Positions 49,077 to 64,000 of a stretch of 64,000 nt of DNA are shown here, piece after piece. Source of the stretch: Actinomycetota bacterium. Lineage in GTDB: Bacteria; Actinomycetota; Actinomycetes; Streptosporangiales; Streptosporangiaceae. The translations under genes were made by a program, and so were the position numbers. The stretch is from NCBI GenBank assembly GCA_027313705.1, contig DAHVDE010000038.1:1-64000 (forward strand), in the 5' to 3' direction. The notes below the pieces were generated by a model that saw nothing but the letters and a program-made list of their open reading frames with translations, ran no database searches and was not told where the DNA came from. Position 1 is the stretch's first letter. Each line of letters begins with the position of its first letter.

Positions 49077-49144
49077 GCGAGTTCTAGCAGTTCATTAGCT
49101 TAGTTTCGGCTGATCTACAGCTTGGCGGGCCATTGTTCTTAGAT

Positions 49145-49166
49145 GGCGGGCCCGGCCGGGCCCGCC
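49145..49166. terminator. 22-bp perfect GC palindrome after parC
   Basis: GGCGGGCCCGGCCGGGCCCGCC is fully self-complementary and lies about 70 bases beyond the parC stop. It is likely to be the parC terminator, without U-run. Confidence 0.5.
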
Positions 49167-49195
49167 GCCAACGTCCACCAAGCAGGAGCGAACCC

Positions 49196-49438
49196 GTGGC
49201 TACAGTGGCAGCAACCAGGGCACGGCGCCTGATTTCGGCCGTCGCTCCTCCCTTCGGCCAGGACGCGACCGCCGCAGTGCTCACTGAGCAGGCTCACCAG
49301 GCGGCAGGCACCGCCGATCCGGTGTCCGACGCTGATAAAGGCGCAGCGCTCGTTGCCGATCGCCGCCACCAGGAAGCAACGGATTCGCGCTTCAGTCCGT
49401 CTAATGCAGAAAGCACGTCACGTCACTGGACCCATTAG
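49196..49438 (+). CDS. Possible small protein, unrecognised
   Basis: In the 518-bp gap between parC and the aminotransferase, a GTG frame of 80 residues (start VATVAATRARRLISAVAPPFG) follows AGGAG at a suitable distance. It is Ala-rich with a polar C-terminus and resembles no family I know. It may be noncoding. Confidence 0.22.
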   Translation: MATVAATRARRLISAVAPPFGQDATAAVLTEQAHQAAGTADPVSDADKGAALVADRRHQEATDSRFSPSNAESTSRHWTH

Positions 49439-49483
49439 TAGCCGCCAGCGGGCGACTACCACACCACATACCGCATACCCGGT

Positions 49484-49552
49484 GGCCCGGGTAGCGACGA
49501 ACCCGGGCCTAGGCGGGGGGCGACCAGCGGGCACGTAATGGTCACCCCCCGC
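49484..49552 (-). terminator. Two consecutive hairpins after the aminotransferase gene
   Basis: GGCCCGGGT/ACCCGGGCC (49484-49509) is a 9-bp stem with an 8-base loop. GCGGGGGG-C-GACC pairs with GGTC-A-CCCCCCGC (49513-49552), a 12-bp stem with one mismatch. Both lie downstream of the minus-strand aminotransferase stop and also face parC, so they may insulate the gene cluster from the core genome. Confidence 0.6.
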
Positions 49553-49594
49553 AGAAAGGCCCTTCAGTCCGGCGCCGTCGACCCCAGCGTCCGG

Positions 49595-50923
49595 CTAGCT
49601 CAGCCGGTCAGCGACGAGGGCGGCGAACCGGTCGAGGCCTTCCTCAAGCGCCTGCGGCGTCATCTGGCTGCACGCGAGCCTGGCCTGGTGCGACCCTCCT
49701 GCTCCGGCATAGAAGTGGCTCATCGGTGTCCAGAGCACGCCGTGCGCCCGAGCCGAGTACTCCATCAGTTCGTCATCAGCGACGAACGGCAGCGTCACTA
49801 CCGCGAAGAACCCGCCGGTCGGCGTGTTCCAGGTGACCGGCGACCCAGCCGGGAACCTGCGGTGCAGGCCGTCAAGCAAACGGCGCATGTTGGCCAGGTA
49901 ATGCGCGGTCTCACGCTCGTTGGCCTTGGCCAGGGAAAAATCGTTGAGCAGCAGCTTTCCCCCGATCACGGCCTGGGCCACGGCGGGCGTGTTGACAGTG
50001 ATCATGCTCTTGATCCGGCCCAGGTAGTCGGCAAGCAGGCTGACATGGCCTGAATCGGCAGCGACCCGCTGGTCGGCCACGGTGAACCCGACTCGTGCTC
50101 CGGGGAATCCCACCTTGGCGAAAGACCCGATATAGATGACCTGCCTGCGGGTGTCGAGTGCCTTGAGCGTGGGCAGGTGCTCGCCCGAGTGGAACGTGCC
50201 GTACGGGTTGTCTTCGATCAGCAAGATCTCCTCGGCGGCCGCCACCTCGAGCAGGCGCCGCCTGGTGGCCAGGCTCATGCTTACCCCAGATGGGTTCGCG
50301 AAGTCCGGCATCAGATAGCACGCACGGACCCTGAGCCCGGCGCTCCTGGCGCGGCGGACCGTGGTCACCAGGTCGTCGAGGTCAATGCCGTCATCGCCGC
50401 CGCGCACGGGCCAGACCGGCAGATCGGCCAGCCGGGCGGCACCGGTCAGCCCGACATAGCTCGGCGACACGGAAAGCAGCACGTCGCTCTGATCGGCGCG
50501 AAGCGCCCGCAGCACGGCGAACATGCCTTCCTGGAAACCGACGGTCACCACGATCGCGGCAGGATCAGCCGCGATGCCCTCGTCGGTCTCCAGGTACCTG
50601 GCCACAAGTTCGCCGATCATGCCGTTGGTGCGGCCGTACTGGAATAGTGCCTGGTTCAGCCTGACCGTACTGAAGCCGCGCTCTGTGGTCAGGTACTCGC
50701 AGTAGGCGTCGAGGTACCTGTGGATCAAGCCGACGTCGAAGAACTGCTCGCAAGGTCGCCCGGAGGCGAACGAGATCGCGTCCGGGTACCGGCCGGCAAT
50801 CTCGTTCAGGAAGTTCATCGACTCGAGTGCCGGGTCGACCAGCGAGCCGTGCAACGTGGCCGCGGCAAGGTCCGCTCCCTGAGCGACCTCGGCGAAGACA
50901 CCGGCCTGGGTGCCGCTTGTCAT
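49595..50923 (-). CDS. PLP aminotransferase, hydroxyphenylglycine-transaminase-like
   Basis: The 442-residue fold type I aminotransferase starts with SMNFLNEIAGRYPDAISFASGRPCEQFFD, which I associate with HpgT-type transaminases of phenylglycine biosynthesis. There is no MocR helix-turn-helix. PLP motifs: VTVGFQEGMFAVL, YLMPDFANPSGVSMS, IEDNPYGTF and the lysine in YIGSFAKVGFPGARVGF. The substrate is unknown; amino acid transaminases of the Aro8 type are an alternative. AAGGGATC precedes the ATG. It borders the precursor peptides and is the first gene of the putative cluster. Confidence 0.82.
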   Translation of the reverse strand: MTSGTQAGVFAEVAQGADLAAATLHGSLVDPALESMNFLNEIAGRYPDAISFASGRPCEQFFDVGLIHRYLDAYCEYLTTERGFSTVRLNQALFQYGRTNGMIGELVARYLETDEGIAADPAAIVVTVGFQEGMFAVLRALRADQSDVLLSVSPSYVGLTGAARLADLPVWPVRGGDDGIDLDDLVTTVRRARSAGLRVRACYLMPDFANPSGVSMSLATRRRLLEVAAAEEILLIEDNPYGTFHSGEHLPTLKALDTRRQVIYIGSFAKVGFPGARVGFTVADQRVAADSGHVSLLADYLGRIKSMITVNTPAVAQAVIGGKLLLNDFSLAKANERETAHYLANMRRLLDGLHRRFPAGSPVTWNTPTGGFFAVVTLPFVADDELMEYSARAHGVLWTPMSHFYAGAGGSHQARLACSQMTPQALEEGLDRFAALVADRLS

Positions 50924-51105
50924 AGCTGTTGATCCCTTCGCGTCTGATTCCCATCTTTTCGGCTAACGACCCGTTCCGCAAGGAGGCCGGCAACGCCACC
51001 CTGGCGGCCTGATGCGGCGAGTGACGGCGGACCGTAAGAGCGGCCTGACGCTGAGCAGCGAAGGGTACCCTAAGCTTCGCGGATACTTTCCGAAAAGGTA
51101 GGCGA

Positions 51106-51246
51106 ATGTCACCGTCAGGGAAGAAGCGGAATGACCGGCTCCCTATCGCCGCAGGACAACAGCATGTTCGCAGGGCTTCGGAGCTGCCAATCCGGATAAC
51201 GCGACGATGCGTACGGGACTGTCCAATCGGAAGTGACGTGGGATGA
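51106..51246 (+). CDS. Possible small protein upstream of the peptide genes
   Basis: A 46-residue frame (start MSPSGKKRNDRLPIAAGQQH) follows AAGGTAGG by four bases. It ends 12 bases before the TTGACA promoter of the peptide genes. No similarity is recognised; it contains two cysteines and many arginines. Of the 500-base gap from 50924 to 51426, the remainder holds the divergent promoter region and the peptide leader. Confidence 0.3.
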   Translation: MSPSGKKRNDRLPIAAGQQHVRRASELPIRITRRCVRDCPIGSDVG

Positions 51247-51258
51247 AGACTCCGATGC

Positions 51259-51293
51259 TTGACATATCGACCGCCCGATACCAATCTAGCCGG
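51259..51293 (+). promoter_or_regulatory. Promoter of the small peptide genes
   Basis: A perfect -35 TTGACA (51259-51264) and a -10-like CAATCT (51282-51287) are 17 bp apart. Transcription would begin near 51294, which is exactly where the duplicated unit begins. This is the best -35 hexamer noticed in the window. Confidence 0.55.
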
Positions 51294-51426
51294 TAGGTGA
51301 TCTGATCCGGGTTTGCCGGCTGGTCACTTGCGGTTCCGTGCCACGCGGTTGTTAGCCGCGACGTTAGCCGCGACCGCAGCCCGTGCCCGACGCCCATGTG
51401 GCCAGGAAACCGGAGGGAGGCGCACA

Positions 51427-51501
51427 ATGAGGGACGATCTCAAGGTTGAGAAGGACGACACCATCAAGCTCGAGAAGGACGACACCATCGTCAAGGACTA
51501 G
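51427..51501 (+). CDS. Small Lys/Asp-rich peptide A, putative ribosomal precursor
   Basis: A 24-residue peptide starting MRDDLKVEKDD, then TIKLEKDD, then TIVKD and stop. GGAGGGAGG at 51412-51420 lies six bases before the ATG. The 18-bp string GAGAAGGACGACACCATC occurs twice, 24 bp apart (51448, 51472), so the peptide holds two cores of an 8-residue unit. No Cys, no hydrophobic signal. It resembles a multi-core precursor cut out and modified by the neighbouring enzymes. A longer frame from 51313 covers the leader and is not preferred, since unit B breaks it. Confidence 0.7.
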   Translation: MRDDLKVEKDDTIKLEKDDTIVKD

Positions 51502-51639
51502 GCAGTAGGTGACCTGATCCGGGTCACCCGGCTGGTCACTTGCGGTTCCGTGCCACGCGGTTGTTAGCCGCGACATAAGCCGCGACCGCAGCCCGTGCCC
51601 GACGCCCATGTGGCCAGGAAACCGGAGGGAGGCGCACAA

Positions 51640-51732
51640 ATGAGGGATGATCTCAAGGTCGAGAAGGACGATGTAGTCGTCAAGGACCGCGACGATCTTA
51701 TCGTCAAGGACGACGTCGTAGTGAAGGACTAG
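51640..51732 (+). CDS. Small Lys/Asp-rich peptide B, putative ribosomal precursor
   Basis: A 30-residue peptide starting MRDDLKVEKDD, identical to peptide A for 11 residues, then VVVKDRDD, LIVKDD and VVVKD before the stop. It thus has three [aliphatic]-V-K-D units. GGAGGGAGG lies seven bases before the ATG. The identical start and variable repeats suggest a recognition region followed by cores. Translation of both units in one mRNA is likely, as a single promoter and a single terminator flank them. Confidence 0.7.
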   Translation: MRDDLKVEKDDVVVKDRDDLIVKDDVVVKD

Positions 51733-51752
51733 CTCTAAGCCAGCTCTTTAAC

Positions 51753-51802
51753 GATCTCCCGGGCCCGGTCCGCATCGGATCGCGACCCGGGAGATCTGTT
51801 TT
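51753..51802 (+). terminator. Intrinsic terminator after the peptide genes
   Basis: GATCTCCCGGG pairs with CCCGGGAGATC in a perfect 11-bp stem around a 22-base loop, followed by TGTTTT. It lies 20 bases after the stop of peptide B and just beyond the end of the convergent CoA ligase gene. Confidence 0.85.
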
Positions 51803-51806
51803 CCGG

Positions 51807-53417
51807 TCAGCTTGCGCCGCGCGCCTCGCGGTACCGCCGGCGAAGTTCCTTCTTGTCCACCTTGCCCTGACCGGTCAGCGGAAGTCCGGTCACGAACTCG
51901 ATGGTCCTGGGCGTGTAGAGCGCGTTGAGCGTGCTCCTGGTCAGTTCGCGCAGTTCCTCGGCGTCAACTTCCGCGCCGGCCTCGGGAACCACGATCGCGT
52001 GCACCAGTTCCTCGTCCTCGTCGCCAGGTACGCCGATCACCGCTGCCGAGCGCACCTTGGGATGGCTGGTCAGCACATCCTCGATCGGCTTAGCGTAGAC
52101 ATTGGCCGCCGCGCCGCTGGTCACGATCATGTCGCTGATCCGGTCGATCAGATAGAGGAACCCGTCCTCGTCCTTGTACCCGATGTCGCCGGTGCGCACC
52201 CAGCCGGCCTTCATGGTCTGCCTGGTCAGCTCGGGCTGCTGCCAGTATCCGGCCATGGCGAGCGAGCCTTTCACCCACACCTCGCCTGACTCGCCGACGC
52301 CTGCTTCCTTGCCTTCCTCGTCACGAAGCTCGATGACCGAGTCGGCGAACGGCTGCCCGCACGACTTCAGCCGGTCCGGATGCTCCGGGTCGTGATCAAG
52401 GAAAGGCAGGTCGGTGATCAGCGGCAGTTCGCTCGAGCCATAGACGATCCGCACCACCGGCCCGAGCTTGTCGATAGCCTCGGCCAGCCGTGCCGGGTTC
52501 GCCGCCGCACCGCCAACGTTCAGGTAACGCAGCGAACTCGTGTCCGTCGAGGGCAGCGCTTCGTGTGCCAGCACGGCGTAAAGCAACTGCGGGGTGAGGA
52601 ACGCGCTGGAGATCTGCTCCTTCTGGATCGTGCCAAGCCAGTCCGCCGGATCCCAGCGCTCGCTGGTAAAGAAGGTGCCGCCCTGGAAGAGAGTGAGGAA
52701 CGCGGGCGTCTGACCGCTCACGTAGCTGTAAGACGAGCCGGAGAGGAACCGCATCGGCGGTTCCTTGATCGACCGGTAATAGGCGGAGATGAACTGAAGC
52801 ACCTTGTAAAAGCCCTGCCAGTGATGCACTAGCTTGGGCTGCCCCGTGGTACCGCCGGTATAAAACAGCGAAGACGGCTGACTGCCGACGTAGGCGAGCG
52901 GCAGGTCGGGAGCGTGCGGATCGATGTCGGCGAGCAGGTTACGGTGGCTGCCGTCTGCAGCGCCCATGGTGAGCACCTTGAGGTCGGGCATCCGCTCGAT
53001 CAGCTCGGCCGCAAGCTCGGCCCGCTGCATCACCGCCGGACTGTAGATCAGGACGTCCGGCCTGGCCATCTCCAGGTAGGCGATCTGGTCGCGGCGCGGC
53101 GCATAAGGCACGATCCACACCGTGCGGCAGCCAAGCAGGTGCAGTGCCAGTTGCAGCGACGCCGACTCAGGGCAGTCCCGCACTAGCACCGCGACGCCCA
53201 TGCCGTCCTCGACCCCGGCATCATGGAGCGTCGCCGCCAGGCTCCTGGTGAGATTGGCGACCTCGCGATAGGTGAGCCTGACCTCACCCTGCACGATCGC
53301 TTCCCGGTCGCCGTACTCGGCGAACAACTCGAACGCATCGAGCACGTAGTTGTCCGGCTCGAGTTCGATGCTGTCATCTGCGGCCAGATCCTGCCCAGAT
53401 GCCAGGTTCCCTGTCAT
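51807..53417 (-). CDS. AMP-dependent acyl/aryl-CoA ligase-like adenylating enzyme
   Basis: A 536-residue ANL-superfamily enzyme that adenylates a carboxylic acid. Motifs: SSLFYTGGTTGQPKLVHH (near 185), SGSSYSYVSGQTPAFLTLFQGG, YGSSELPLITDLP, TGDIGYKDEDGFLYLIDRISDMIVTSG and the catalytic lysine of TGQGKVDKKELRR. The loop IVYGSSELP replaces the usual GxTE. No carrier protein or condensation domain is attached. Its start overlaps the ATP-grasp stop by four bases, so the two are produced together, perhaps acting on the same acid. Confidence 0.88.
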   Translation of the reverse strand: MTGNLASGQDLAADDSIELEPDNYVLDAFELFAEYGDREAIVQGEVRLTYREVANLTRSLAATLHDAGVEDGMGVAVLVRDCPESASLQLALHLLGCRTVWIVPYAPRRDQIAYLEMARPDVLIYSPAVMQRAELAAELIERMPDLKVLTMGAADGSHRNLLADIDPHAPDLPLAYVGSQPSSLFYTGGTTGQPKLVHHWQGFYKVLQFISAYYRSIKEPPMRFLSGSSYSYVSGQTPAFLTLFQGGTFFTSERWDPADWLGTIQKEQISSAFLTPQLLYAVLAHEALPSTDTSSLRYLNVGGAAANPARLAEAIDKLGPVVRIVYGSSELPLITDLPFLDHDPEHPDRLKSCGQPFADSVIELRDEEGKEAGVGESGEVWVKGSLAMAGYWQQPELTRQTMKAGWVRTGDIGYKDEDGFLYLIDRISDMIVTSGAAANVYAKPIEDVLTSHPKVRSAAVIGVPGDEDEELVHAIVVPEAGAEVDAEELRELTRSTLNALYTPRTIEFVTGLPLTGQGKVDKKELRRRYREARGAS

Positions 53418-54790
53418 GAGCCCTCCTCGAAGCCAGAATCGTCAGGTACGAACATCTCTTCGTCGCCGACCCGCGAGGCCGGCCAGGTGCGCTGCTGCCA
53501 GGACCGTAGCGTCGCGTGCGTTACCTGCTGGGGCGCGACGATCAGTTGCCCGGCGAACCAGGCCTGGATCGCCGCGAAGCGGGCGATCAGCTCACCGGGT
53601 TCGGCTGCGGTGACAAGAACCTGCCCGAGCCTGCTGGCCGCGTCGGAGATCTGGTCCGCGATCACCGCGCCGACCGGCATCTCGATCCTGGCGAAGGCCG
53701 CACCCGGCTGGCGCACTATCTCGGTGACCGGCGGAACGGAGAGCAGCACGCCTGGCGGCGCGTTCAGGTTCGTGGTGCCCACGAAACCTGGCCTCACCCG
53801 CACGTCCAGCCGCGGCGGCCAGCCAAGCTGCGCGAGCAGCATCTCCTCGGCGAGGTCGACGTTGAACTTCCACAGGACTTCTTCGAAGATCATGGCCGCG
53901 CCCCGTCTGGCCGCGCACTCGCCGAACATCAGCGGCCCGCCGTCAGCCGGCCTGAACAGCTCCATGTGGAAGACGCCATCGGTCATGCCGAGCGCCCCGA
54001 TGGCACGCCTGGCCAGCGCTCCGCCTTCTTCGAAGATGTCTTTGTCCGCTACCGGATCGAACCGGCAGTAAGTCATCGATGCCTGCCGTTCGACGACCGC
54101 CAGGCACGGTTCCGGGTAATAGCCCATGGAGCAGAACGCAAGCTCGCCGTCGCGCATGACTCCGTCGACGATCAGTTCGTCGTTGGGTATGTACTTCTCG
54201 AGCATGAAGGTGCGCAGGTCTGTATGCGCTGCGGCGTACTTCGCCGCTGCCTCGAGCTCGCCTGCGTCCCTGACCAGCTTCGTGAGCCTGGTGCCGACCC
54301 CGGCAACCGGCTTGAGCACCATCGGGCTGTACGGCAGCGGCGGCAACTGGCCAAGCTCGCGAATGTCGTCGATGACGACGAAATCGGCGGCAGGCACGCC
54401 GGCCGCGCGGACCGCGCGCTTTTGAAGTGACTTGTCGCGGAACCTGATGGCCACGTCGACCGGCAGCCCGCGGCACCCGTAATGGCCAGCCAGCAGCGCG
54501 GCGAGCGGAACCGTGTACTCATTGGAGGAAATCACCGCGTCGAAGTGCCGGTCGGCGAGGCCCGCACGGGACAATGCCCCGAGCACGACGGCGACATCCT
54601 TATGATTCTCAACAAAAACGCTGGTCATGCCGGGTGGCACCCGTGCGACTCCGGCGTCGGTGATGCCGGCACCGCAGATGACAACCGCATCGACCCCGTT
54701 GCGCTGGCAAGCCCGGAGCAGATAGCGGTCCGGAGCGATGATCAGCACAGTTGGCGCCGAACTACCCTCAGTAGCGCCAGAATCACCCAT
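53414..54790 (-). CDS. ATP-grasp carboxylate-amine ligase, putative peptide ligase
   Basis: The 458-residue protein has a Rossmann-like N-domain (PTVLIIAPDRYLLRACQRNGVDAVV) and an ATP-grasp domain: FRDKSLQKRAVRAAGVPAADF, PMVLKPVAGVGTRLTKLV, MLEKYIPNDELIVDGV and the metal-binding GECAARRGAAMIFEE. This class joins a carboxylate to an amine through an acylphosphate. The C-terminal 120 residues resemble the lid of amino-acid ligases. The ATG at 54790 follows GAGGGG; the frame could begin at 54847. Adjacent to two repeat-core peptides, it is a candidate for attaching an amino acid to their termini, as PGM1 does for pheganomycin. It does not look like graspetide MvdC/MvdD enzymes. Confidence 0.8.
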   Translation of the reverse strand: MGDSGATEGSSAPTVLIIAPDRYLLRACQRNGVDAVVICGAGITDAGVARVPPGMTSVFVENHKDVAVVLGALSRAGLADRHFDAVISSNEYTVPLAALLAGHYGCRGLPVDVAIRFRDKSLQKRAVRAAGVPAADFVVIDDIRELGQLPPLPYSPMVLKPVAGVGTRLTKLVRDAGELEAAAKYAAAHTDLRTFMLEKYIPNDELIVDGVMRDGELAFCSMGYYPEPCLAVVERQASMTYCRFDPVADKDIFEEGGALARRAIGALGMTDGVFHMELFRPADGGPLMFGECAARRGAAMIFEEVLWKFNVDLAEEMLLAQLGWPPRLDVRVRPGFVGTTNLNAPPGVLLSVPPVTEIVRQPGAAFARIEMPVGAVIADQISDAASRLGQVLVTAAEPGELIARFAAIQAWFAGQLIVAPQQVTHATLRSWQQRTWPASRVGDEEMFVPDDSGFEEGS

Positions 54791-55036
54791 TACATCCCCT
54801 CGCTGCGATGTGTCAGGTTTGCCGCCGGTTTCATGATCTGAGACCAACCGTAGCGGAAGCGGGCCTTTACGTCAGTCCTGCGGTGAGCGCACTTTCTGTA
54901 TTGGCCAGGTGCCATAGGCCCTCGACTACCGGATGCCGTTGAGGCAAGCTAATGATGCGGTCGCCCCAGCCCCCTGGTGCCGCGCCACTGGCCAGTTCCT
55001 CGCACTGCCGCCTCGGCAGGGATAAGGATCGGGAGA

Positions 55037-56299
55037 ATGGATGACGTTCAGGAGTCAGCCACGTCGCTGACGGCCGACGCTGAGCGACTGCTCCACGAAC
55101 TCGTGGCGCCGGAAGGCCGCGCCAATCCTTATCCGGTCTACGCGAAGCTGCGCGAAGTCGCTCCGGTCTTCCTAACCGGCGACGCCGCCTACCTGACCAG
55201 GTACGACGACTGTCAGGCCATTATCAGGAACCCGTCGCTCGGAGCGCAGAGCCCGGCCTGGATGGACGTGGTGCGGCCAGGCTGGCGGGACCATCCTGGC
55301 CTGCGGGTCACCCACGAGTCCTTCGTGTTCCGCGATCCGCCGGACCACACCAGGCTGCGGCGTCATGTCAGCAGCGACTTCAGCCAGAGCAAGGTCAGGA
55401 AATGGCACGGCTATATCGCCGCCGCCACCGCGGACGTCATCGACCAGATCGCGTCGGCGGGTGCCGACGGCGGTACCGTCGACCTGCACGAGGTGCTCGC
55501 CACCACGCTGCCGATCAAGGTGATCGGCAAGATACTCGGCGTTCCTGAATCGGACTTTCCCGCGCTTAGAGTCCCGCTCGAAGGACTGCGCCTGGCAGCG
55601 GACGGATCGCCTGCTGACAAGCTGCCCGTCATCGACAAGGCGGGCGAGGATCTGCTCAGCTATTTCGCCGACCTAGTCGCGCTGCGCCGCCGCCAGCCAG
55701 AAGGTGACCTGGTGACGTCCCTGGCGAAGGTGAGGGACACCGGCGGAGGTGCCGGGCAGCCCGACGACGCGGTGCTCAGCGAGGAAGAACTACTCCAGAC
55801 GCTGACCCTGATCTTCAGCGCGGCCATCGAGAGCATGGCTGACCTGCTGCTCAACGGTGCCGCGGCCCTGATCGACTTTCCCGCCCAAGCGGCCGCGCTG
55901 CGGGCCGATCCCGGACTCACCACCGGTGCCGTGGAAGAAGCCCTCCGCTACGACGCCCCCGTGCAGGCCGTCGGCCGGATCGCGAGAGGCGACTGCGAAG
56001 TAGGCGGTGTCGCCATTCCCGACGGCACCTACCTGCTCGGGTTCATCGGCGCGGGAAACCGCGACCCTGAACGCTTCCCGGAACCTGACGTCTTCGACAT
56101 CACCAGGGAGGGCCCGGCACCGCTGTCCCTGAGCGGCGGCGCGCACTTCTGCCTGGGCGCGGCGCTGGCCAGGCTGGAAGCGGCGGTGTTCTTCCCTGCT
56201 CTGGCCGGGCGATTCCCGCGCCTGGCCTATGCGGCGGCACCAGTACGCCGTGGCTTCGCGCTGCGCGGCTTCGCCAGTTTCCCCGTTACCGTGCGCTGA
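55037..56299 (+). CDS. Cytochrome P450, first of two related
   Basis: A 420-residue bacterial class I P450 that needs separate ferredoxin. Pattern: RDPPDHTRLRRHVSSDFS, EEALRYDAPVQAVGRIA (ExxR), FIGAGNRDPERFPEPDVFDI and the heme thiolate loop LSGGAHFCLGAALARLE. The I-helix motif is SAAIESMADLL, so the usual acid-threonine pair (D/E-T) is E-S. The ATG at 55037 follows AAGGATCGGGAG. It is divergent from the ATP-grasp gene and is similar to the P450 at 61.7 kb. No ferredoxin is encoded here. Confidence 0.93.
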   Translation: MDDVQESATSLTADAERLLHELVAPEGRANPYPVYAKLREVAPVFLTGDAAYLTRYDDCQAIIRNPSLGAQSPAWMDVVRPGWRDHPGLRVTHESFVFRDPPDHTRLRRHVSSDFSQSKVRKWHGYIAAATADVIDQIASAGADGGTVDLHEVLATTLPIKVIGKILGVPESDFPALRVPLEGLRLAADGSPADKLPVIDKAGEDLLSYFADLVALRRRQPEGDLVTSLAKVRDTGGGAGQPDDAVLSEEELLQTLTLIFSAAIESMADLLLNGAAALIDFPAQAAALRADPGLTTGAVEEALRYDAPVQAVGRIARGDCEVGGVAIPDGTYLLGFIGAGNRDPERFPEPDVFDITREGPAPLSLSGGAHFCLGAALARLEAAVFFPALAGRFPRLAYAAAPVRRGFALRGFASFPVTVR

Positions 56300-57230
56300 C
56301 CGCGAAGGCGGCGGCCAGTCGCTCCGCCGCTGTCGCGACCGCCTCCCTGGCCAGGTCGAGTATGCCGACCATAGTGAAGAAACCGTGCATCATGCCGTCG
56401 TAGCGGATCACCTCTGCGGGCACGCCGTGCTCGGCGAGTTTCCTCGCATAGCATTCGGCCTCGTCGCGCAGCGGGTCAAGCTCGGCCGTGATCACGGTGG
56501 CGGCAGGCAGGCCTGACAGGTCGGCGGCCCGCAGCGGCGAGGCAAGCGGATCGTCGCCGTCCTGCGGCGAGGCGAGATACATGCCCCAGTACCACCTGAT
56601 CGCGTTCGAGTTGAAGAAGTGCTTATCGGCGATCTCTCGCATCGAGGCGGTGTCCGCGGCGGCATCGGTATTCGGATACACGAGCAGCTGATGCACGAAC
56701 CGCGGCCCGCCACGCTCTCTGGCCAGCAGGGTGACCGCAGCGGCCAGGTTCCCGCCCGAGCTGTCGCCGCCGACGGCCAGCCTGGTCGCATCGATACCCA
56801 GCTCGTCATGGTGCGCGGCCACCCAGGCGGCGCCGGCGTAGCAGTCGTGCACCGCGGCCGGGAACTTGTTCTCGGGCGCCAGCCGGTAGCTCACCGCTAT
56901 GCTGGCGCAGCCCGCCCGGTTGGTGATCCTGCGGCACACCGCATCTGAGGTGTCAAGCGTGCCGAGGCTCCAGCCGCCGCCGAAGTAGTAGATGAGCGCG
57001 GGCGGCCGCTCGACGCCTTCAGGCAGGTAAATCCTGGCCGCGAGGTCTCCGGCCTCGCCGTCGATCACGAAATCACGCACCTCCCCCACCGGCTCAGGCG
57101 CTCCCGCCGTGGTGATCGCGCCCTTCACGTCCTGAGCCCGCGCCTCCTCGATCGGGAGCGTGTAAAGGTTGGGCACCTGCTCGGCCTCGAGCCGGTCCCT
57201 GATCGCCTGCACCTGCGGATGAAACGGCAT
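56286..57230 (-). CDS. Alpha/beta hydrolase, HSL/GDXG family
   Basis: A 314-residue hydrolase of the hormone-sensitive lipase group. The nucleophile is in GGDSSGGNLAAAV, the acid near ITAELDPLRDE and the histidine in MMHGFF. The oxyanion motif HGGG has become FGGG (YYFGGGWSLG), as occurs in some members. AGGAGAATCAG precedes the ATG at 57230. It is last of the SGNH-methyltransferase-hydrolase unit and overlaps the convergent P450 stop by 14 bases. Substrate unknown. Confidence 0.9.
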   Translation of the reverse strand: MPFHPQVQAIRDRLEAEQVPNLYTLPIEEARAQDVKGAITTAGAPEPVGEVRDFVIDGEAGDLAARIYLPEGVERPPALIYYFGGGWSLGTLDTSDAVCRRITNRAGCASIAVSYRLAPENKFPAAVHDCYAGAAWVAAHHDELGIDATRLAVGGDSSGGNLAAAVTLLARERGGPRFVHQLLVYPNTDAAADTASMREIADKHFFNSNAIRWYWGMYLASPQDGDDPLASPLRAADLSGLPAATVITAELDPLRDEAECYARKLAEHGVPAEVIRYDGMMHGFFTMVGILDLAREAVATAAERLAAAFAVSAR

Positions 57231-57283
57231 CTGATTCTCCTGTCTGCCCGGGCACCACGGCGGCTGGCCGGATCTGGCGATCA

Positions 57284-58381
57284 CTACCTGGGAACGGCCT
57301 CTATGACGCTTTCCGCCTGGCGAGCGCGGATCGGCGCTGACCGCACGGCGGTTACCTCAAAGCCTGCCTGCCCGAGCAGGCCGGCGTACTCACCGGAAGT
57401 ACGGTCGCTTCCCGGCAGCATGAGCAGGATAAGCAAATCGATGAGCTGCGCGGACTGCACCTGCCTGCCAGGCTGCGCGGCGCCGGAGTCAGCGGCCGCT
57501 TCTGGCTCGAGCAAGCTCTCGAACACCAGCAGCCTGCCACCTTCCCCGGCCGCCGCGCGCACCTGGCGGAGCAGCCTCACCGCGTCAGCGTCTGACCAGT
57601 TATGCAGCACGCGGGACAGGATGTAGACGTCGCCGCCTGCGGGCACCTGGTCGAAGAAGCTGCCGGCCACGAACTCGACCCGGCCGGCCAGGCCGGCCGC
57701 AGTCAGCCGGTCCCTGGCCTGGGCGATCGCTGGAGGCAGGTCGACAAGCACGCCGGCCGCCCGCGGCTGTGCCCGCAAGATGCTGGCAAGCAAGCCGCCG
57801 TTGCCGCCGCCGACGTCCACGATCCGGCCGGCGCCGGTCAGGTCGCAGGTGGCAAGCGCGGCGGGCACCGGGCCGTCGCCCATGGCGCTGGCGAAGGTGC
57901 GCGCGGCGTCCTGGTTGTCCGCCAGGTAGTCGTAGAACGGCTTGCCGTATACCTTCTCGAAGGCAGGCTTTCCGGTACGGAGCGTGTAGCCGATCTCGGC
58001 GAAGGAAGAGAAGACCTCGTCGCCGAACATCACCGCGGCGTCATGACTCGACCTGGGCACGCCGGCCCGCAGCAGCTGACCGAGCGGCGTCAGGGCAAAG
58101 CCGCCGTCCTCGGCCAGGCTCAGCACGCCGGCCGAGCAAAGCGAGCGCAGCACCCGCCCGAGTGCCCGCTCGTTGGTTTCTGTCTGCCTGGCTAGCTCGG
58201 CAAGCGGGCGCGGCCCCTGCGCGAGCAGGTCAGGGATGCCGAGCTTGGCGATGGCCGAGCAGGACTGGGCGATCCAGGTTGCCGAGAGCAGTTCGAACAT
58301 CCGCACCCGGTCGGCGATGCCTGGCCTGGCCGCAGCGTCGGCGCCGCGGCCTGATCCAGGCTCTCCGCCTGCCGCCATCAC
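57284..58381 (-). CDS. SAM-dependent O-methyltransferase with dimerisation domain
   Basis: A 365-residue small-molecule O-methyltransferase. The N-terminal winged-helix dimerisation part (residues 30-150, ELARQTETNERALGRVLRSLCSAGVL) is followed by motif I VDVGGGNGGLLASIL, the acidic DLPP loop, VLHNWSDADAVRLLRQ with the catalytic histidine, and a C-terminal GFEVTAV. Phenolic or other hydroxyl groups are typical targets. It overlaps the upstream SGNH gene by four bases. Confidence 0.92.
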   Translation of the reverse strand: MMAAGGEPGSGRGADAAARPGIADRVRMFELLSATWIAQSCSAIAKLGIPDLLAQGPRPLAELARQTETNERALGRVLRSLCSAGVLSLAEDGGFALTPLGQLLRAGVPRSSHDAAVMFGDEVFSSFAEIGYTLRTGKPAFEKVYGKPFYDYLADNQDAARTFASAMGDGPVPAALATCDLTGAGRIVDVGGGNGGLLASILRAQPRAAGVLVDLPPAIAQARDRLTAAGLAGRVEFVAGSFFDQVPAGGDVYILSRVLHNWSDADAVRLLRQVRAAAGEGGRLLVFESLLEPEAAADSGAAQPGRQVQSAQLIDLLILLMLPGSDRTSGEYAGLLGQAGFEVTAVRSAPIRARQAESVIEAVPR

Positions 58382-59106
58382 CGCGCGGCTCTGGCACGGA
58401 CCGTGGCCGGCCTGCCGATCTCACCGAGATGGCGGCCAAGCCGCCTGACCGCCTCGGCGGCCGAGATCGCGTGCCCGCGCATCGAGCCGTGCCTCGGGTC
58501 CTCGCTGTAGGCATCGGCATCGCCAGAGGCGGGATGGGCGCTCAGCGAGACGTGCAGTCCGCCGTACTCCTCGGAGACGGCCCTGGTCAGTGCGGATAGC
58601 CCTTGCAGGCGGCGGCGCAGCACAGTCTTGAACTCGACCGGCATCGTCGGCGACTTCGAGCCGTCGAACAAGCCGACCGTGATCACGTCGGCGCCCGCGC
58701 CTGCGAAGGCCGACACGATCGTGCGCAGCGCAGACTCGACGGCCCTGGGGTCGTAGAAGACCCGCAAGATGTCGTATCCGCCGCATGCGACCAGCGCCAG
58801 GTCCGGCTTGAAGCTCAGCGCATCAGCCAGTTGAGTGCCGGCGACGTCAACCGCCTGCGTCTCGCGCACCCCGAGGTTCAGGTACTCGAAACCTGGCGCC
58901 TGCCTGGCAAGCTCAGCCGCGATCCGATCGCACCATGGCTGGTCAGGGTATCCGGGGCAAGGGTCACCAAGCCCTTCGGCGATGCTGTCACCGACGACGA
59001 CGAAACGCCGCCACGGGTGCCAGGCGAGCAGTCGTTCCGCCTCACCGTCGTCGAGGCAGTAGGGGTCGGCTGCTTCCGCCGGGTGCAAGCGCTGGCTGGT
59101 CATCAC
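58378..59106 (-). CDS. SGNH/GDSL-family hydrolase
   Basis: A 242-residue SGNH hydrolase, without signal peptide. Block I is VVVGDSIAEGLGD (serine nucleophile) and block II LNLGVRE (glycine). In block III GGYD the usual asparagine of GxND is tyrosine. Block V is DPRHGSMRGHAIS with Asp and His. Loss of the Asn would weaken the oxyanion hole, so it may be an acyltransferase or need another substrate. It is the first gene of a three-gene unit with the methyltransferase and the lipase-like hydrolase. Confidence 0.85.
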   Translation of the reverse strand: MMTSQRLHPAEAADPYCLDDGEAERLLAWHPWRRFVVVGDSIAEGLGDPCPGYPDQPWCDRIAAELARQAPGFEYLNLGVRETQAVDVAGTQLADALSFKPDLALVACGGYDILRVFYDPRAVESALRTIVSAFAGAGADVITVGLFDGSKSPTMPVEFKTVLRRRLQGLSALTRAVSEEYGGLHVSLSAHPASGDADAYSEDPRHGSMRGHAISAAEAVRRLGRHLGEIGRPATVRARAAR

Positions 59107-59184
59107 CGAAGATTACGACGCGGCGAAATGGCAATCAACAACCAATCCCTAGACTTAGCGCCTGTAACTGGCACACTAGTACCG

Positions 59185-59256
59185 ATGCGCAGATCCGACT
59201 GGCCCTCCTTCGTCATGTGCCCGCGAGTCGCACCCGTTCCGATGGCGGCGCGATGA
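59185..59256 (+). CDS. Short leader reading frame coupled to the MFS gene
   Basis: A 23-codon frame (starts MRRSDWPSFV, ends PVPMAAR) ends with TGA that overlaps the MFS start (ATGA). CACACT lies seven bases before its ATG, the same CACACTAGT element as before glpK, so transcripts may start here. Because the MFS gene has no ribosome site, translation may enter it by termination-reinitiation from this frame. Confidence 0.4.
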   Translation: MRRSDWPSFVMCPRVAPVPMAAR

Positions 59257-60560
59257 CGGCGGTAGAAGGGCAGGCAGGCACCGCCAGCGATCAGCCGGCC
59301 AGCACCGTCCAGCCGCCGCCATTAAGGCGCAACCGGGACTTTAACTTGCTCTGGTCAGGGCAGGCGCTGTCCGACATGGGCACGCAGATGTCCACCATCG
59401 CCTACCCGCTGCTGATCCTCATGATCACCGGGTCGGCCGCCAAGGCAGGCATCGTGGGCAGCGCCACCATCGCGGGCACGCTGGTGTTCCTGCTGCCCGC
59501 CGGGGTCGCGGCCGACCGCTGGCCGCGCAAGAAGATTCTGGTCGCTACCTCGGTCGTACAGCTGATCGTCGGCGCATCCGTGGTGCCAGCCATCGTCACC
59601 CAGCACGTCTACCTGGTCCACCTGGCCGCTGTCGGCTTCATTCAAGGGACGGCCCTGGCGTTCTATACCGGCGCCAGCCGCGGTGCGCTGCGCCGGATCG
59701 TGCCGCTCGAGCAGCTACCTGATGCGTTCGCGCGGACGCAGGCCAGGGACCGCGCCGCCGTCATGCTCGGTCCTCCTGCCGGGTCTGCGCTATTCGGCGT
59801 CGCGCCCTACCTGCCGTTCGCCGCTGACTCGCTGTCGTTCGGCGCGATCACCCTGGCCGCGTCCTTGCTGCGCAAGTCGCTCGACCCTGAGCAGCAGCCG
59901 GTACCTGCCGAGCAGCTGCCGCTTTGGCAACGTGTCATGACCGGCTTGCGTTACGTCTTCGCCACGCCGTACCTGCGTATGGTCACCGTCTGGGCGACTG
60001 TGGTCAACGGCGTGATCGCGGGTGTCAGGCTCACCTCGATCGTGCTCGCCGAGCACATGGGTGCTCCCCCGGCCCAGATCGGCCTGCTGTTCTCGATCAG
60101 TGCGGCGATCGGGCTGGTCGGCGCCATCTTCGCCAAGCGGATCATCGCCTACCTTGGCGAGCGCCTGCTCGTGCAGCTGGTGTCGTGGACGTTCCCGGTT
60201 TGCGCGGCTGTCATGGCCGTCACCCCCTGGGTCTGGCTGATCGGGATCATGGCCGGACTCACCGGGTTCTTGCTGATGCCGATCAACGTCGTGCTGATGT
60301 CGCGCGCCGCGCAGCTCGCCCCCGATCATCTCCAGGCGCAGATGAGCAATGCCATGCAGCTGTGCTGGACCAGCCTCATGGCAGTGAGCCCGGCCCTGTT
60401 CGGGTTCATCACCGACCAGATCGGGCCGCGCGCCATGATCCTTATCACTGCCGGGGTCTACCTGCTCATCGCGATCTGGACGCTGACCCGCCGCGGAATG
60501 GAGTTGCTGGAAAGACGCGCGCGCGCCGGCGCGCCGCGCGAAAGCGATTCACCTGCCTGA
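59253..60560 (+). CDS. MFS exporter (EntS-like MFS_3 family)
   Basis: A 435-residue, twelve-helix MFS protein, of the MFS_3/enterobactin-exporter group: NRDFNLLWSGQALSDMGTQMSTIAYPLLILMITGSAAKAG at the start, AGVAADRWPRKK in loop 2-3, FARTQARDRAAVMLGPPAG, LRYVFATPYLRMVT and SLMAVSPALFGFITDQIGPR. It probably exports the product of the cluster. It leads a plus-strand unit with sulfotransferase, P450 and second sulfotransferase. The ATG at 59253 overlaps the leader frame stop. Confidence 0.92.
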   Translation: MTAVEGQAGTASDQPASTVQPPPLRRNRDFNLLWSGQALSDMGTQMSTIAYPLLILMITGSAAKAGIVGSATIAGTLVFLLPAGVAADRWPRKKILVATSVVQLIVGASVVPAIVTQHVYLVHLAAVGFIQGTALAFYTGASRGALRRIVPLEQLPDAFARTQARDRAAVMLGPPAGSALFGVAPYLPFAADSLSFGAITLAASLLRKSLDPEQQPVPAEQLPLWQRVMTGLRYVFATPYLRMVTVWATVVNGVIAGVRLTSIVLAEHMGAPPAQIGLLFSISAAIGLVGAIFAKRIIAYLGERLLVQLVSWTFPVCAAVMAVTPWVWLIGIMAGLTGFLLMPINVVLMSRAAQLAPDHLQAQMSNAMQLCWTSLMAVSPALFGFITDQIGPRAMILITAGVYLLIAIWTLTRRGMELLERRARAGAPRESDSPA

Positions 60561-60580
60561 GCGACCTGCCGGAGGAAGTC

Positions 60581-61648
60581 ATGCCGATCACATTTGTCGT
60601 AAGCACCGGCCGAGCCGGTTCGACCCTGCTGTCCCGCATGCTCGCCCTGCATCCGCAGATACTCAGCATCAGCGAGTTCTTCGCCGTTTTAATGGGCATC
60701 CTGCGCCGCGATCCTTACCCGTCCGAGCCCATGGACGGCGCGGAACTGTGGCGGATCGCGTCGGCACCCGATCCGCTCGCCGACGCGATGGTGCGCTGCG
60801 GCCAGCAGGTGCCCGAGATGTTCTACCCGTACGATTCCGGCCGTTTCACCGCGTCGAGCGGGATCCCGATCATCAGCCACAGCACACTGCCGCTGCTCAG
60901 CGACGACCCTGACGGCCTGTACGACCAGCTAGCCGCGGAAGTTCCCAGCTGGCCGGTGCGCCCGGCGGCGGAACAGTACCGCGCTCTGTTCGCATTGCTC
61001 GCCCGGCTGCTCGGACGGCCGGTCGTCGTGGAACGGTCGGGCGGGTCGCTGCCGCTCATCAGCTTGCTCAGGCGGGAGTTCCCTGACGCCAGGTTCTTGT
61101 TCATGCACAGGGACGGCCCCGATACCGCGGTGTCCATGAGCCGGTTCCCGATGTTCAAGCTCGGGGTCATGGCGACTGAGGCCGCGCAGGAGGCCGGCCT
61201 GCCGCTCAATGCCACCATGGACGAGATCACGGCCAGCCTGCCAGAACGCTACCTTGGCATCTTGTCGCCGCCATACAACTTGCGAGGCCTGTCTGACGTG
61301 CGGATCTCGCCGGTCTGGTTCGGCGAGTTGTGGTCCAGGATGATCTGCTCAGGCACGACGATGCTCGCCCAGGTACCTGAGCAGGACAGGAGCGAGATTA
61401 GCTATGCGGACCTGCTGAGCGACACCGAAGGCACACTGACCAGACTGGCCGGGTTCCTCGGCGTCACCGCCTCAGGGCAATGGTGCCAGGCGGCCGCCGG
61501 GCTGTGCGACCGTAGCCGGCCGGGCGCGGCGGGCACGCTCGAACCCGACTTGAGTGCGCGCCTGGAAGCCGCGTGCCAGCCAGGCCGCGAAGCGCTCGCG
61601 GCATTTCTCGGCGCCACTTCTCACGACGAAATCGCCACCCTACGATGA
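60581..61648 (+). CDS. PAPS-dependent sulfotransferase, first copy
   Basis: A 355-residue sulfotransferase-fold protein. The PAPS 5'-phosphosulfate loop is VVSTGRAGSTLLSRML (residues 6-21). The 3'-phosphate site is probably FPDARFLFMHRDGPDTAVSMSRFP. Its acidic-hydrophobic core includes DELxLYxP-like MFYPYDSGRF. GGAGGAAG precedes the ATG at 60581. It is a close paralogue of the protein at 63.0 kb. The acceptor is unknown, and some members of this fold do other chemistry. Confidence 0.85.
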   Translation: MPITFVVSTGRAGSTLLSRMLALHPQILSISEFFAVLMGILRRDPYPSEPMDGAELWRIASAPDPLADAMVRCGQQVPEMFYPYDSGRFTASSGIPIISHSTLPLLSDDPDGLYDQLAAEVPSWPVRPAAEQYRALFALLARLLGRPVVVERSGGSLPLISLLRREFPDARFLFMHRDGPDTAVSMSRFPMFKLGVMATEAAQEAGLPLNATMDEITASLPERYLGILSPPYNLRGLSDVRISPVWFGELWSRMICSGTTMLAQVPEQDRSEISYADLLSDTEGTLTRLAGFLGVTASGQWCQAAAGLCDRSRPGAAGTLEPDLSARLEAACQPGREALAAFLGATSHDEIATLR

Positions 61649-61692
61649 CGGAAGCGGCATAACCGCCGCGACCAGCGGGAAGGACAAGAAAA

Positions 61693-62949
61693 ATGGCGGT
61701 AGCGGAGCAGGCAGCAATGGCGCAGTCGGCGGCCGACCTGCTGCTTGGCAGCCTGCTCTCCGCCGCGGCCAGCGCCGACCCTTACCAGGTATACGCGCGG
61801 CTGCGCGAACTCGGTCCGGTCAGGTGGAGCACGGCGGGCGGCGTGCCTGTGCTCACCAGTTACGAAGACTGCGCTGCGCTGGTACGTGACCAGAAGTTCG
61901 GGTCGCAGAGCCCGGCCTGGTGCGATCAGGTGACACCTGGCTGGCGTGACCATCCGGCCAGGGTCACCACGTTCGAGGCCATGCTCTTTCGCGACCCCCC
62001 CGATCACACCAGGCTGCGCCGCCTGGTAAGCGCCGCCTTCACGCCGCGCCAGGCGGAGCGGATGCGGGCCGGCGTCGCCGCGCTCAGCGCCAAGTCGCTT
62101 GACCAGCTCGCCGACGCAGGCGCCGAAGGCGGCACGATCGACCTGCACGAGTTCCTGGCGGCCAGACTGCCGATCGCCGTGATCGGCTCGCTAGTCGGCG
62201 TGCCTGAGTCCGACTGGCCGATGCTGCGCGAGCCCATGTCGGCCCTGCTCAGGCTAGTCGAGCTTGGCATCACCACGGACGACGTCGCCAAGGCCGACGC
62301 CGCGGCGGTTATCCTGGCCGATTATTTCACCGCGCTGGCCGGCGATCGCCGCAGCCATCCCGGCGGCACCGATCTGGCATCGGCCGTGGTCGCGGCCAAG
62401 CAAGCCGCCGCAGGGACGGCAGGCTTCACAGATACCGAGGTCGTCCAGACACTGACCTTCCTGTTCATGGCAGGCGTCGACACGATGGGCAACCTGCTCT
62501 GCAACGGTACTTTCGCGCTCCTGGCCAATCCGGCGCAGGCCGGCCTGGTGCGAGCAGGCCTGGTGCCGACAGATGACCTGGTCGACGAGGTACTCAGATA
62601 TGACGCACCGGTGCAGCTTGTCGGCCGGGTAGCTGCTGCCGGGCACATGTTCGGCAGCCTGCAGGTACGTCCAGGCGAGCTGGTGCTTGCCCTGATCGGA
62701 GCGGGCAACCGCGACCCGGCCAAGTTCGCCGCACCCGAGGTGTTCGACGTCACCAGGAAGGGCACGGCGCCGCTGTCATTCGGGGGCGGCATTCACCGCT
62801 GCCTCGGCGCCCCGTTGGCCAGGGTAGAGGCAGGCGAGTTCCTCACCGGCTTGCTCAGCCGGTTCCCCGCGATCAGCCTGGCCGGCGAGCCGGTCAGGCA
62901 GGGTACGGTCTTCCGAGGGTTCAGCTATCTTCCGGTAGCCATTCGCTAG
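61693..62949 (+). CDS. Cytochrome P450, second copy
   Basis: A 418-residue P450 with VSAAFT-type LRRLVSAAFTPRQAERM, the I-helix LFMAGVDTMGNLLCNG with the normal acid-threonine pair, EVLRYDAP (ExxR), LIGAGNRDPAKFAAPEVFDV and the heme loop FGGGIHRCLGAPLARVE. It is paralogous to the P450 at 55.0 kb (shared SQSPAW and GWRDHP segments). GGAAGG precedes the ATG. Directly between the two sulfotransferases, it may make the hydroxyl that they sulfate. Confidence 0.94.
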   Translation: MAVAEQAAMAQSAADLLLGSLLSAAASADPYQVYARLRELGPVRWSTAGGVPVLTSYEDCAALVRDQKFGSQSPAWCDQVTPGWRDHPARVTTFEAMLFRDPPDHTRLRRLVSAAFTPRQAERMRAGVAALSAKSLDQLADAGAEGGTIDLHEFLAARLPIAVIGSLVGVPESDWPMLREPMSALLRLVELGITTDDVAKADAAAVILADYFTALAGDRRSHPGGTDLASAVVAAKQAAAGTAGFTDTEVVQTLTFLFMAGVDTMGNLLCNGTFALLANPAQAGLVRAGLVPTDDLVDEVLRYDAPVQLVGRVAAAGHMFGSLQVRPGELVLALIGAGNRDPAKFAAPEVFDVTRKGTAPLSFGGGIHRCLGAPLARVEAGEFLTGLLSRFPAISLAGEPVRQGTVFRGFSYLPVAIR

Positions 62950-63036
62950 TCACCCTCCTTTGCCGGCGCGCTGAGTAGGACTAAGCGGTCTCAGTTGCGC
63001 CATGATGGCTAAAGTGGTCACAGGGAGGGAAAGTTC

Positions 63037-64000
63037 ATGTCTGTTACTTTCGTGGTGAGTACCGGCCGTTCCGGCTCGACTATGCTGTCGAAGATCTTGC
63101 ATCAGCACCGGGACATCCTGAGCATGAGCGAGTTCTTCGTCACCCTGCAGCGGGTGCCGCTCGGCTGGGAACTGCCGCTGCGCGACATGGACGGCGCGGA
63201 ACTGTGGGAACTGCTTTCCGGCGCCGATCCCGTCGTCGACGCCATGATCGCGGGCGGGCTGAAGAACGACGAGATGTTCTACCCGTACGACGCGGGCAGG
63301 TTCACGCTGGCCGCGGGAATACCCAATATCTGCCATAACACGCTGCCGATACTCACCGACGATCCAGACTCGCTGTTTGACCAGCTAGCGGCCAGGGTGC
63401 CAACCTGGCCAAGACGACCGGCCGCGGCTCAGTACCGTGCATTCTTCGCCCTGCTCGGCGAGTTGCTCGGCCGCCGGGTCGTCGTGGAGCGTTCAGGCAG
63501 TTCGCTGGCGCTGATCAGCGAACTGCGAGCCGAGTTTCCCGATGCCAGGTTCGTGCACATGTACCGGGACGGGGTCGATTGCGCCCTGTCGATGGTCAGG
63601 CACCCGATGTTCAGGCTGGCCGCCTTGCAGTACCTGCTTGCCCTCGAGGCGGGTCTGCCGACATCGGCGTCCTTCGAGGATATCGCCGCGGTCATCCCGG
63701 AGAAGGCAACCGGGCTGATCGTGCCGCCATTCGACGCCGAGCGATTCATGGCCTGCGACATCCCGCCCGCGATCTTCGCAAGGACCTGGTCAATCATGGT
63801 CGCCGGCGGCGTCGAAGCGCTGACCGCGCTCGGACCGCAGTCGTGGACCCAGCTCAGCTACGAGCAGCTACTTGCCGATCCAGCCAGCGAACTTACCAGG
63901 CTGGCCGGCTTCCTCGGCGTGCCAGCCGAGCCCGACTGGCTGCGCTCGGCGGCTGAGCTGATCGACCCGCTGCGCACCGGCGCCGCGACCAGGATAGACA
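63037..64000 (+). CDS. PAPS-dependent sulfotransferase, second copy, cut by window end
   Basis: The frame is open from ATG 63037 (after GGGAGGGAAAG) to the window end, 321 codons. It aligns along its whole length with the first sulfotransferase: FVVSTGRSGSTMLSK, MSEFFVTL, DMDGAELW, EMFYPYDAGRF, NTLPILTDDPDS, VVVERSGSSLALI and FPDARFVHMYRDG. Roughly 20-35 residues are missing at the C-terminus judging from the paralogue. Confidence 0.85.
   Translation, partial: MSVTFVVSTGRSGSTMLSKILHQHRDILSMSEFFVTLQRVPLGWELPLRDMDGAELWELLSGADPVVDAMIAGGLKNDEMFYPYDAGRFTLAAGIPNICHNTLPILTDDPDSLFDQLAARVPTWPRRPAAAQYRAFFALLGELLGRRVVVERSGSSLALISELRAEFPDARFVHMYRDGVDCALSMVRHPMFRLAALQYLLALEAGLPTSASFEDIAAVIPEKATGLIVPPFDAERFMACDIPPAIFARTWSIMVAGGVEALTALGPQSWTQLSYEQLLADPASELTRLAGFLGVPAEPDWLRSAAELIDPLRTGAATRID

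Follow-up and report, generated by a model that had tools for sequence, protein, structure and literature searches.

Tandem Lys-Asp repeat micropeptides beside an ATP-grasp ligase gene are candidate multi-core precursors in an actinobacterial biosynthetic island

Two short tandem genes in a Streptosporangiaceae genome encode peptides with repeated Lys-Asp blocks (A and B) and lie inside a biosynthetic island of 28,068 bp between parC- and parE-type genes. By the window we mean the whole stretch of DNA analysed, which is 64,000 nucleotides long. We consider it rather probable that A and B are multi-core ribosomal precursors and that their cores are joined by an ATP-grasp enzyme to an acid of the pathway, much as in pheganomycin. 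A first-pass annotation of this DNA had proposed multi-core RiPP precursors, and comparative genomics supports the proposal, since repeat micropeptides were found at conserved places in related clusters. On this comparison, A and B are strong RiPP candidates. The decisive context is given by the adjacent ATP-grasp and AMP-ligase genes together with the 28-kb island.

Peptide A (MRDDLKVEKDDTIKLEKDDTIVKD, 24 amino acids) is encoded at 51427..51501 and peptide B (MRDDLKVEKDDVVVKDRDDLIVKDDVVVKD, 30 amino acids) at 51640..51732, both on the plus strand, as read from the sequence and the list of open reading frames. A stretch of 142 nt is present in two copies (51286-51427 and 51498-51639) with 94% identity and 8 differences, the starts of the copies being 212 nt apart. 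The duplicated 212-bp unit that had been described holds as a spacing, but it is not exact across the variable 3′ part of the reading frames. The 5′ leader of unit A (51286..51426, plus strand) ends in the ribosome-binding site GGAGGGAGG and is 94% identical to the leader of unit B (51498..51639, plus strand), which was delimited by comparison of the copies and also carries a ribosome-binding site. Other details of the first-pass annotation were confirmed: the lengths of 24 and 30 residues, the strong ribosome-binding site GGAGGGAGG before each ATG, the identity of the first 11 residues (MRDDLKVEKDD), the ending of both peptides in VKD and the 18-bp repeat in the first gene. This direct repeat (GAGAAGGACGACACCATC; 51448..51489, plus strand, with copies at 51448-51465 and 51472-51489) points to core expansion in A. 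The 33 nt coding for residues 1-11 contain 3 DNA differences between A and B, all in third positions and silent, and VVVKD occurs twice in B with silent changes (GTA GTC GTC AAG GAC and GTC GTA GTG AAG GAC); both observations argue for the peptide-coding reading. Each gene therefore shows what is expected of a multi-core RiPP precursor, namely a short reading frame with ribosome-binding site in which variable cores are repeated behind an amino part that stays constant. Their occurrence goes beyond what chance would give: open reading frames of 15-42 codons with at least three KD dipeptides number three in the part of the window from 49077 to 64000, which by reading are A, B and one earlier start of B, and 0 were found in the remaining window and in the other loci (165 loci, 1.51 Mb, a count from which L007, L023 and L024 were excluded as re-coverage of the peptide stretch).

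The region had also been described as a self-contained expression unit, of which the right border could be substantiated and the left one could not. A stem-loop at 51753-51796 (-36.5 kcal/mol, z -4.8 against shuffles) followed by TTTT at 51799-51802 forms a strong terminator-like element (51753..51802, plus strand) and agrees with the intrinsic terminator proposed on this side; a simple terminator scan did not list this stem-loop. On the other side, the TTGACA hexamer is present at 51259..51264 (plus strand) and may serve as a -35 element, but it has no -10 partner and a scan returned 0 promoter-like sites. The leader hairpins did not hold up, as the folds of the 142-nt leaders do not stand out from those of shuffled sequences (z +0.38 and -0.70) and Rfam gave no match at gathering and four matches far under the cut-off.

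The gyrA/parC-type gene ends at 49076 and the gyrB/parE-type gene begins at contig position 77145. In three of the four congeners the convergent parC and parE genes are separated in tblastn by much smaller gaps (1,346 bp in G001, 1,456 bp in G002 and 477 bp in G004), while in G003 parC runs off the contig. As the first ~90 bp of the stretch from 49077 still match the gap of G001, the insertion begins slightly after this position. A gene at 49595..50923 (minus strand) is divergent from the peptide genes and encodes a PLP-dependent aminotransferase according to profile searches and homologues, HpgT-like by context. Behind the peptides follow an AMP-dependent acyl ligase (51807..53417, minus strand; profile searches) and an ATP-grasp ligase of the L-amino-acid-ligase type (53414..54847, minus strand; Pfam, PDB match and model), which is the candidate peptide ligase. 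Further on lie genes for a cytochrome P450 (54977..56299, plus strand), an alpha/beta hydrolase of the Abhydrolase_3 type (56286..57284, minus strand; profile searches), which is conserved beside the ATP-grasp gene in the Micromonosporaceae relatives, an O-methyltransferase (57284..58381, minus strand), a GDSL hydrolase (58378..59106, minus strand), a second cytochrome P450 (61693..62949, plus strand) and a sulfotransferase (63037..63999, plus strand), where not stated otherwise all assigned by Pfam. The island continues to contig position ~77144 and encodes beyond 64000 AMP ligases, FabF- and AmcF-like ketosynthases, an AvaA6-like ligase, PhyH and E1 alpha/beta, with the AmcF-like and AvaA6-like labels resting on matches below the NCBIfam cut-offs. 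MFS and further sulfotransferase gene(s) of the island were assigned by Pfam. The scans of the island proteins brought up no dedicated peptidase, and there was no amidinotransferase among those scanned with Pfam, the last gene (L015:12367-13104) having been covered by NCBIfam only.

An HPPD-family enzyme of the island carries the NCBIfam label 4-HPPD and has its best PDB match in 2r5v (PCZA361.1), a hydroxymandelate synthase, on which the label HMS rests. Here and below, we use HMS, Hmo and HpgT as putative names, suggested by the context, for island and cluster genes. The island may contain phenylglycine-type genes, with an HMS/HPPD-like and an aminotransferase gene present and Hmo absent. 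Pieces with 40-48% identity to Hmo are located on other contigs of the same genome and might or might not act as stand-ins.

In the chemistry of ATP-grasp enzymes, a carboxylate is activated and then linked to an amine. The enzyme of the window matches the Pfam ATP-grasp model, with LAL_C2 and ATP-grasp_4 below cut-off, and its best PDB sequence matches are the L-amino-acid ligases RizA and BL00235 (4wd3, 3vot), which are dipeptide ligases. An AlphaFold2 model built from 21 sequences (mean pLDDT 84.8, pTM 0.81) has its closest folds in the same two proteins, with TM 0.64-0.71 by query length. A PGM1_C match is missing in Pfam, and no graspetide model of NCBIfam or Pfam was found for it, so that the ligase resembles L-amino-acid ligases and not the PGM1 family. 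In trees it is placed on a long branch, and they neither establish nor reject a grouping with the EVAK-type ligases described below (p-AU 0.104). PGM1_C itself was found in 39 of 394 genomes of the class, and the 30 loci scanned contain no VKD-type peptide within ±1.5 kb of it. The single PGM1_C match (PF18105) of the window's own genome is located outside the window at G000:C40:91055-91204.

The search of the short frames and their neighbours which the first-pass annotation had called for delivered no clear sequence homologue of the peptides in the genomes covered, but it did reveal other repeat micropeptides in related clusters. The exact leader MRDDLKVEKDD had 0 matches in genome_contigs (84,980 species, with records near the window's genome possibly omitted), and a search of 338 family genomes with peptide B returned only the two places in the window. 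The DNA unit is present in none of the four congeners among the five genomes of the genus searched, own included. One 46-bp DNA match of 80% in the own genome (L008) was judged to be chance because it lies within a longer frame of a different character. A literature search with the peptide strings of the window and of the EVAK and DIGWP types, and a second one by topic, both with subscription papers mostly outside their scope, returned nothing relevant and no report of these clusters, respectively.

Relatives of the ATP-grasp enzyme were collected from genome_contigs by a two-pattern scan (alignment A1) at 38 loci, nine of which share a core cluster (seven Catellatospora, Rhizocola and Allorhizocola). 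In these genomes, a short peptide made of repeats, its gene preceded by a strong ribosome-binding site, is encoded beside an FMN oxidase (Hmo) and an aminotransferase; examples of these EVAK-type peptides are MEVAKKEVAKREVAKREVAQREVDGVIA, MEVGKEVGKEVGKREVDGIVAN and MSEVAKEVAKEVAREVATSLE. A search anchored on Hmo matched 32 of 354 genomes of the Micromonosporaceae, and among the 30 loci listed, 14 carry a micropeptide of EV[A/G/S/E][K/R/Q] repeats within 1.5 kb of Hmo and divergent from it. These are the nine core-cluster genomes together with G703, G779, G786, G787 and G788. The aminotransferase accompanies the peptide in all 14 loci, and across 165 loci (1.51 Mb) the EVAK repeat pattern is confined to the place divergent from Hmo. 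Thirteen of the 14 genomes have a related ATP-grasp gene inside the cluster. One of them is Allorhizocola, whose cluster is divided between two contigs (L089 and L117), with the ATP-grasp gene on the contig that lacks the peptide. The exception is L154 of G779, with an EVAK-type peptide and no ATP-grasp gene of this kind in cluster or genome (1e-40). Its peptide (L154:18223-18318) is degenerate in the second half and is possibly a relic. Two Catellatospora loci (L093 and L095) contain a second, more distant ATP-grasp (31-34% identity to that of the window) in genomes also possessing the EVAK cluster, and no repeat peptide stood out near it in quick scans. The EVAK peptides are no clear homologues of those of the window, with 16-33% identity to A in a short low-complexity alignment, and the 5′ leaders of the window and of the Micromonosporaceae peptides share no similarity in blastn.

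Another peptide type was detected among the 16 Hmo loci without EVAK peptide, six of which (L155-L160) were inspected over 20 kb. L156 encodes the repeat peptide MTRREVDPSTSDAKFEVEVREVAFEVEVREVAL and L157 the repeat peptides MARREVTPGSFELNFEVNPGTFDVNFEVSGSVALNFEVEPQAAL and MARFEVDPSGALTKFSEVDPSGALTKFSEVDPSGALTKFSEVSPGRTLSL. Downstream of the peptide genes of L156 and L157, another ATP-grasp gene follows after 36 and 83 bp, respectively. The ATP-grasp enzymes of the two loci are 61% identical to each other, and in L156 a third, LAL_C2-type ATP-grasp gene lies beside. The two peptide genes of L157 (4727-5354) stand in tandem, with FEV-type and exact SEVDPSGALTKF repeats, and each has a strong stem-loop behind it, with z of -2.6 and -3.2, an arrangement much like that of the window. 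Neither repeat peptide nor ATP-grasp was found within the 20 kb of L155, a partial cluster, and of L158-L160. ATP-grasp genes of the first kind occur elsewhere in the genomes of G838 (L157) and G704 (L119) too. The L156 and L157 peptides rule out the idea that repeat peptides accompany only the Catellatospora-type ATP-grasp, and a Fisher test (p 1.3e-4) was discarded because its counts predate them. Repeat frames rich in arginine or proline were regarded as noise, among them a QETRSR-repeat frame over a ketosynthase gene in L190.

In the 25 clusters of the aminotransferase tree, which leaves out L084 and L086 (both with both features), ATP-grasp and repeat peptide are present together in 14 clusters, the peptide alone in one (L154), neither in ten and the ATP-grasp alone in 0. 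Some of the ten are weak comparisons, among them the partial L155 as well as L200, which has matches only to HMS, Hmo, aminotransferase and P450 and might represent a different type of cluster. The pattern lacks phylogenetic independence, and the supported branches yield just three independent contrasts, of which on average 2.8 agree and 0 oppose; with so small a number a sign test cannot reach 0.05. A candidate modifying enzyme is thus encoded next to the peptides and co-occurs with such peptides in related clusters, although L154 is an exception and the independent contrasts are few.

Closest to the window by its aminotransferase are G190, G035 and G336, with which it forms a clade at 100/100 and shares 68% identity, the identity to the Rhizocola homologue being 54%. 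A search anchored on HMS matched 45 of 338 family genomes, own included, and the stretches of nine others were compared. ATP-grasp queries at 1e-8 gave no match in these nine fetched stretches, and a repeat-ORF scan of those from G190, G035, G336, G085 and G227 gave nothing convincing. Ten further proteins encoded around the aminotransferase of G190, G035 and G336 were searched; seven of them match families other than ligases and three match nothing. In G190 and G035 an Hmo gene lies beside the aminotransferase, whereas the window has none there. Most simply, the lineage of the window would have acquired both the peptide and the ATP-grasp, possibly in one step, but several losses in the other lineages could also produce this distribution.

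A third peptide type, with DIGWP repeats, is encoded upstream of the ATP-grasp at seven loci (L067, L069-L072, L075 and L096) out of the 27 scanned of the 38, six in Streptomyces and one in another actinobacterium, starting ~1.6 kb before the matched ATP-grasp domain. A stricter scan over all loci returned a DIGWP peptide in four. In L070, L072 and L075 the peptide ends 30-64 bp before an ATP-grasp reading frame of 870-876 codons; L072 and L075, both scanned with Pfam, show two ATP-grasp regions in tandem, in L072 followed by NRPS-like and PKS genes. By eye, the amino ends of the DIGWP peptides are signal-peptide-like. No repeat peptide stood out at the other loci of the 27, for example L068, L073, L074, L077-L082 and L091, so a peptide does not accompany every member of the ATP-grasp family. 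We infer that the three pairings, EVAK with the window, L156/L157 and DIGWP, are ligase-substrate pairs.

If A and B are precursors in this sense, the constant part MRDDLKVEKDD would be followed by acidic-hydrophobic-lysine blocks DDTIVK, DDVVVK and DDLIVK, or, in another register, by the cores TIVKD, VVVKD and LIVKD. Proteolysis, possibly by a housekeeping protease, would then release several short cores from each precursor. In the EVAK peptides and the window alike, the blocks have an acidic residue first and a basic residue last, which suits such a release, and the variation of repeat number and block length among species speaks for cores rather than a folded domain. The adjacent ATP-grasp enzyme would join each core by an amide bond to an acid that the island itself supplies. 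Plausible acids are a hydroxyphenylglycine-type amino acid, as the HMS-like and aminotransferase genes suggest, or an acyl unit of the ketosynthase and acyl-ligase genes. Hydrolase, O-methyltransferase, P450s and sulfotransferases may finish the product. Translation and proteolysis of the peptides, the bond made, the partner joined and the function of the product are all predicted from the genes.

The main rival explanation, which we regard as unlikely and still worth serious attention, is a peptide decorated or cross-linked at its side chains: the ATP-grasp enzyme would activate Asp or Glu, at least one in every repeat, and link a pathway amine, such as a hydroxyphenylglycine-type unit, or close bridges between Lys and Asp/Glu, as in graspetides. 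In all repeat families seen, each repeat indeed carries an acidic residue (DD, the E of EVAK, the E of EV/FEV and the D of DIGWP), and lysine is offered by the window and EVAK repeats as well. However, the DIGWP repeats contain little lysine and the first L157 peptide none, so a lysine bridge is not general, and the ligase of the window is closest in sequence and fold to L-amino-acid ligases, with no graspetide model matching in NCBIfam or Pfam. Less probable again is a scaffold on which a small molecule is built and released, the peptide being no part of the product. LysW-type amino-group carriers and PEARL scaffolds are known examples, and charged peptides of small size whose amino end stays constant, encoded beside amide ligases, would fit. 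Yet the changing repeat number and block sequence suggest cores, and no single fold seems to be indicated by helix-prone EVAKR on the one hand and beta-branched TIVK and VVVK blocks on the other. Furthermore, A and B end in VKD and not in an EDWGE-like motif, the C-terminal hallmark of LysW, and the scanned island proteins comprise no LanB-type enzyme.

Small reading frames with strong ribosome-binding sites, many of them in divergent intergenic regions, and the signal-peptide-like appearance of the DIGWP amino ends would also be compatible with a peptide that controls the cluster by regulation or signalling, be it as a leader peptide, an attenuator or a pheromone. We hold this to be very improbable, as in the window and in Rhizocola a convergent gene follows and the peptide therefore leads no operon, its presence tracks the ATP-grasp gene in the clusters compared, and the leaders of the window have no special fold. 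That the frames arose by chance in a repetitive non-coding stretch is hardly credible: between the two copies the conservation of the non-coding leaders equals that of the coding part, which would fit a recent duplication, but the silent-only differences, the ribosome-binding sites and the 16 other related clusters with repeat micropeptides speak against it.

For the preferred reading of A and B as multi-core precursors, pheganomycin is the nearest model, being a known case in which the ribosome and a stand-alone ligase make one compound. Its cores may contain NVKD, and the bond is made by PGM1 at the amino end of the core. As reported, the pathway comprises the ATP-grasp ligase PGM1 and the precursor PGM2 (PMC8939145, PMC13417212, PMC9484694), and PGM1 joins core peptides with a nonproteinogenic amino acid (PMC8939145, PMC13417212). 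The window resembles this system in combining an ATP-grasp gene with a putative ribosomal precursor of several cores, here read from sequence repeats, and possibly a phenylglycine-type unit. It differs in a ligase without PGM1_C that resembles L-amino-acid ligases and is not assigned to the PGM1 family, in the lack of an amidinotransferase among the scanned island proteins and in the presence of ketosynthase and acyl-ligase genes. By analogy, the same kind of ligation as by PGM1 would be the most economical reading. With the highly reducing type II PKS clusters ava and cma (avenalumic and p-coumaric acid; PMC10777205), the island shares AvaA6-like, acyl-ligase and KS/CLF-like genes; the 3,4-AHBA synthases AvaH and AvaI were not seen among the scanned island proteins, and HMS-like and aminotransferase genes, peptide and ATP-grasp set the island apart. 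Compared with RizA and BL00235, the ligase is proposed here to have a ribosomal peptide as partner. Graspetides likewise involve an ATP-grasp enzyme acting on ribosomal peptides, sometimes multi-core, but without a matching synthetase model and with differing cores we do not assign A and B to them.

As to the wider class, we tentatively put forward, at slightly less than an even chance, that a new class of hybrid natural product has been assembled repeatedly: on several occasions a module of repeat micropeptide and ATP-grasp would have entered clusters with HMS/HpgT-like and ketosynthase/acyl-ligase genes, coupling unrelated ribosomal cores (DDVVVK, EVAK and SEVDPSGALTKF) to the acid of the respective cluster; the DIGWP cores with tandem ATP-grasp beside NRPS/PKS-type genes are part of this same joint proposal. 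Hybrids of ligase and RiPP are an active topic, as PMC13417212 reports 47 clusters in which Pgm1 homologues occur together with biarylitide precursors. If our reading is true, the logic of pheganomycin has arisen on another branch of the ATP-grasp enzymes and with several core peptides that are not related to each other, and the combination of ribosome and ligase operates inside clusters with type II PKS-like and phenylglycine-type genes. Since micropeptides of 21-50 residues are easily overlooked by gene finders, such pairs might then become a handle for the mining of hybrid products and of peptide ligases with new specificities.
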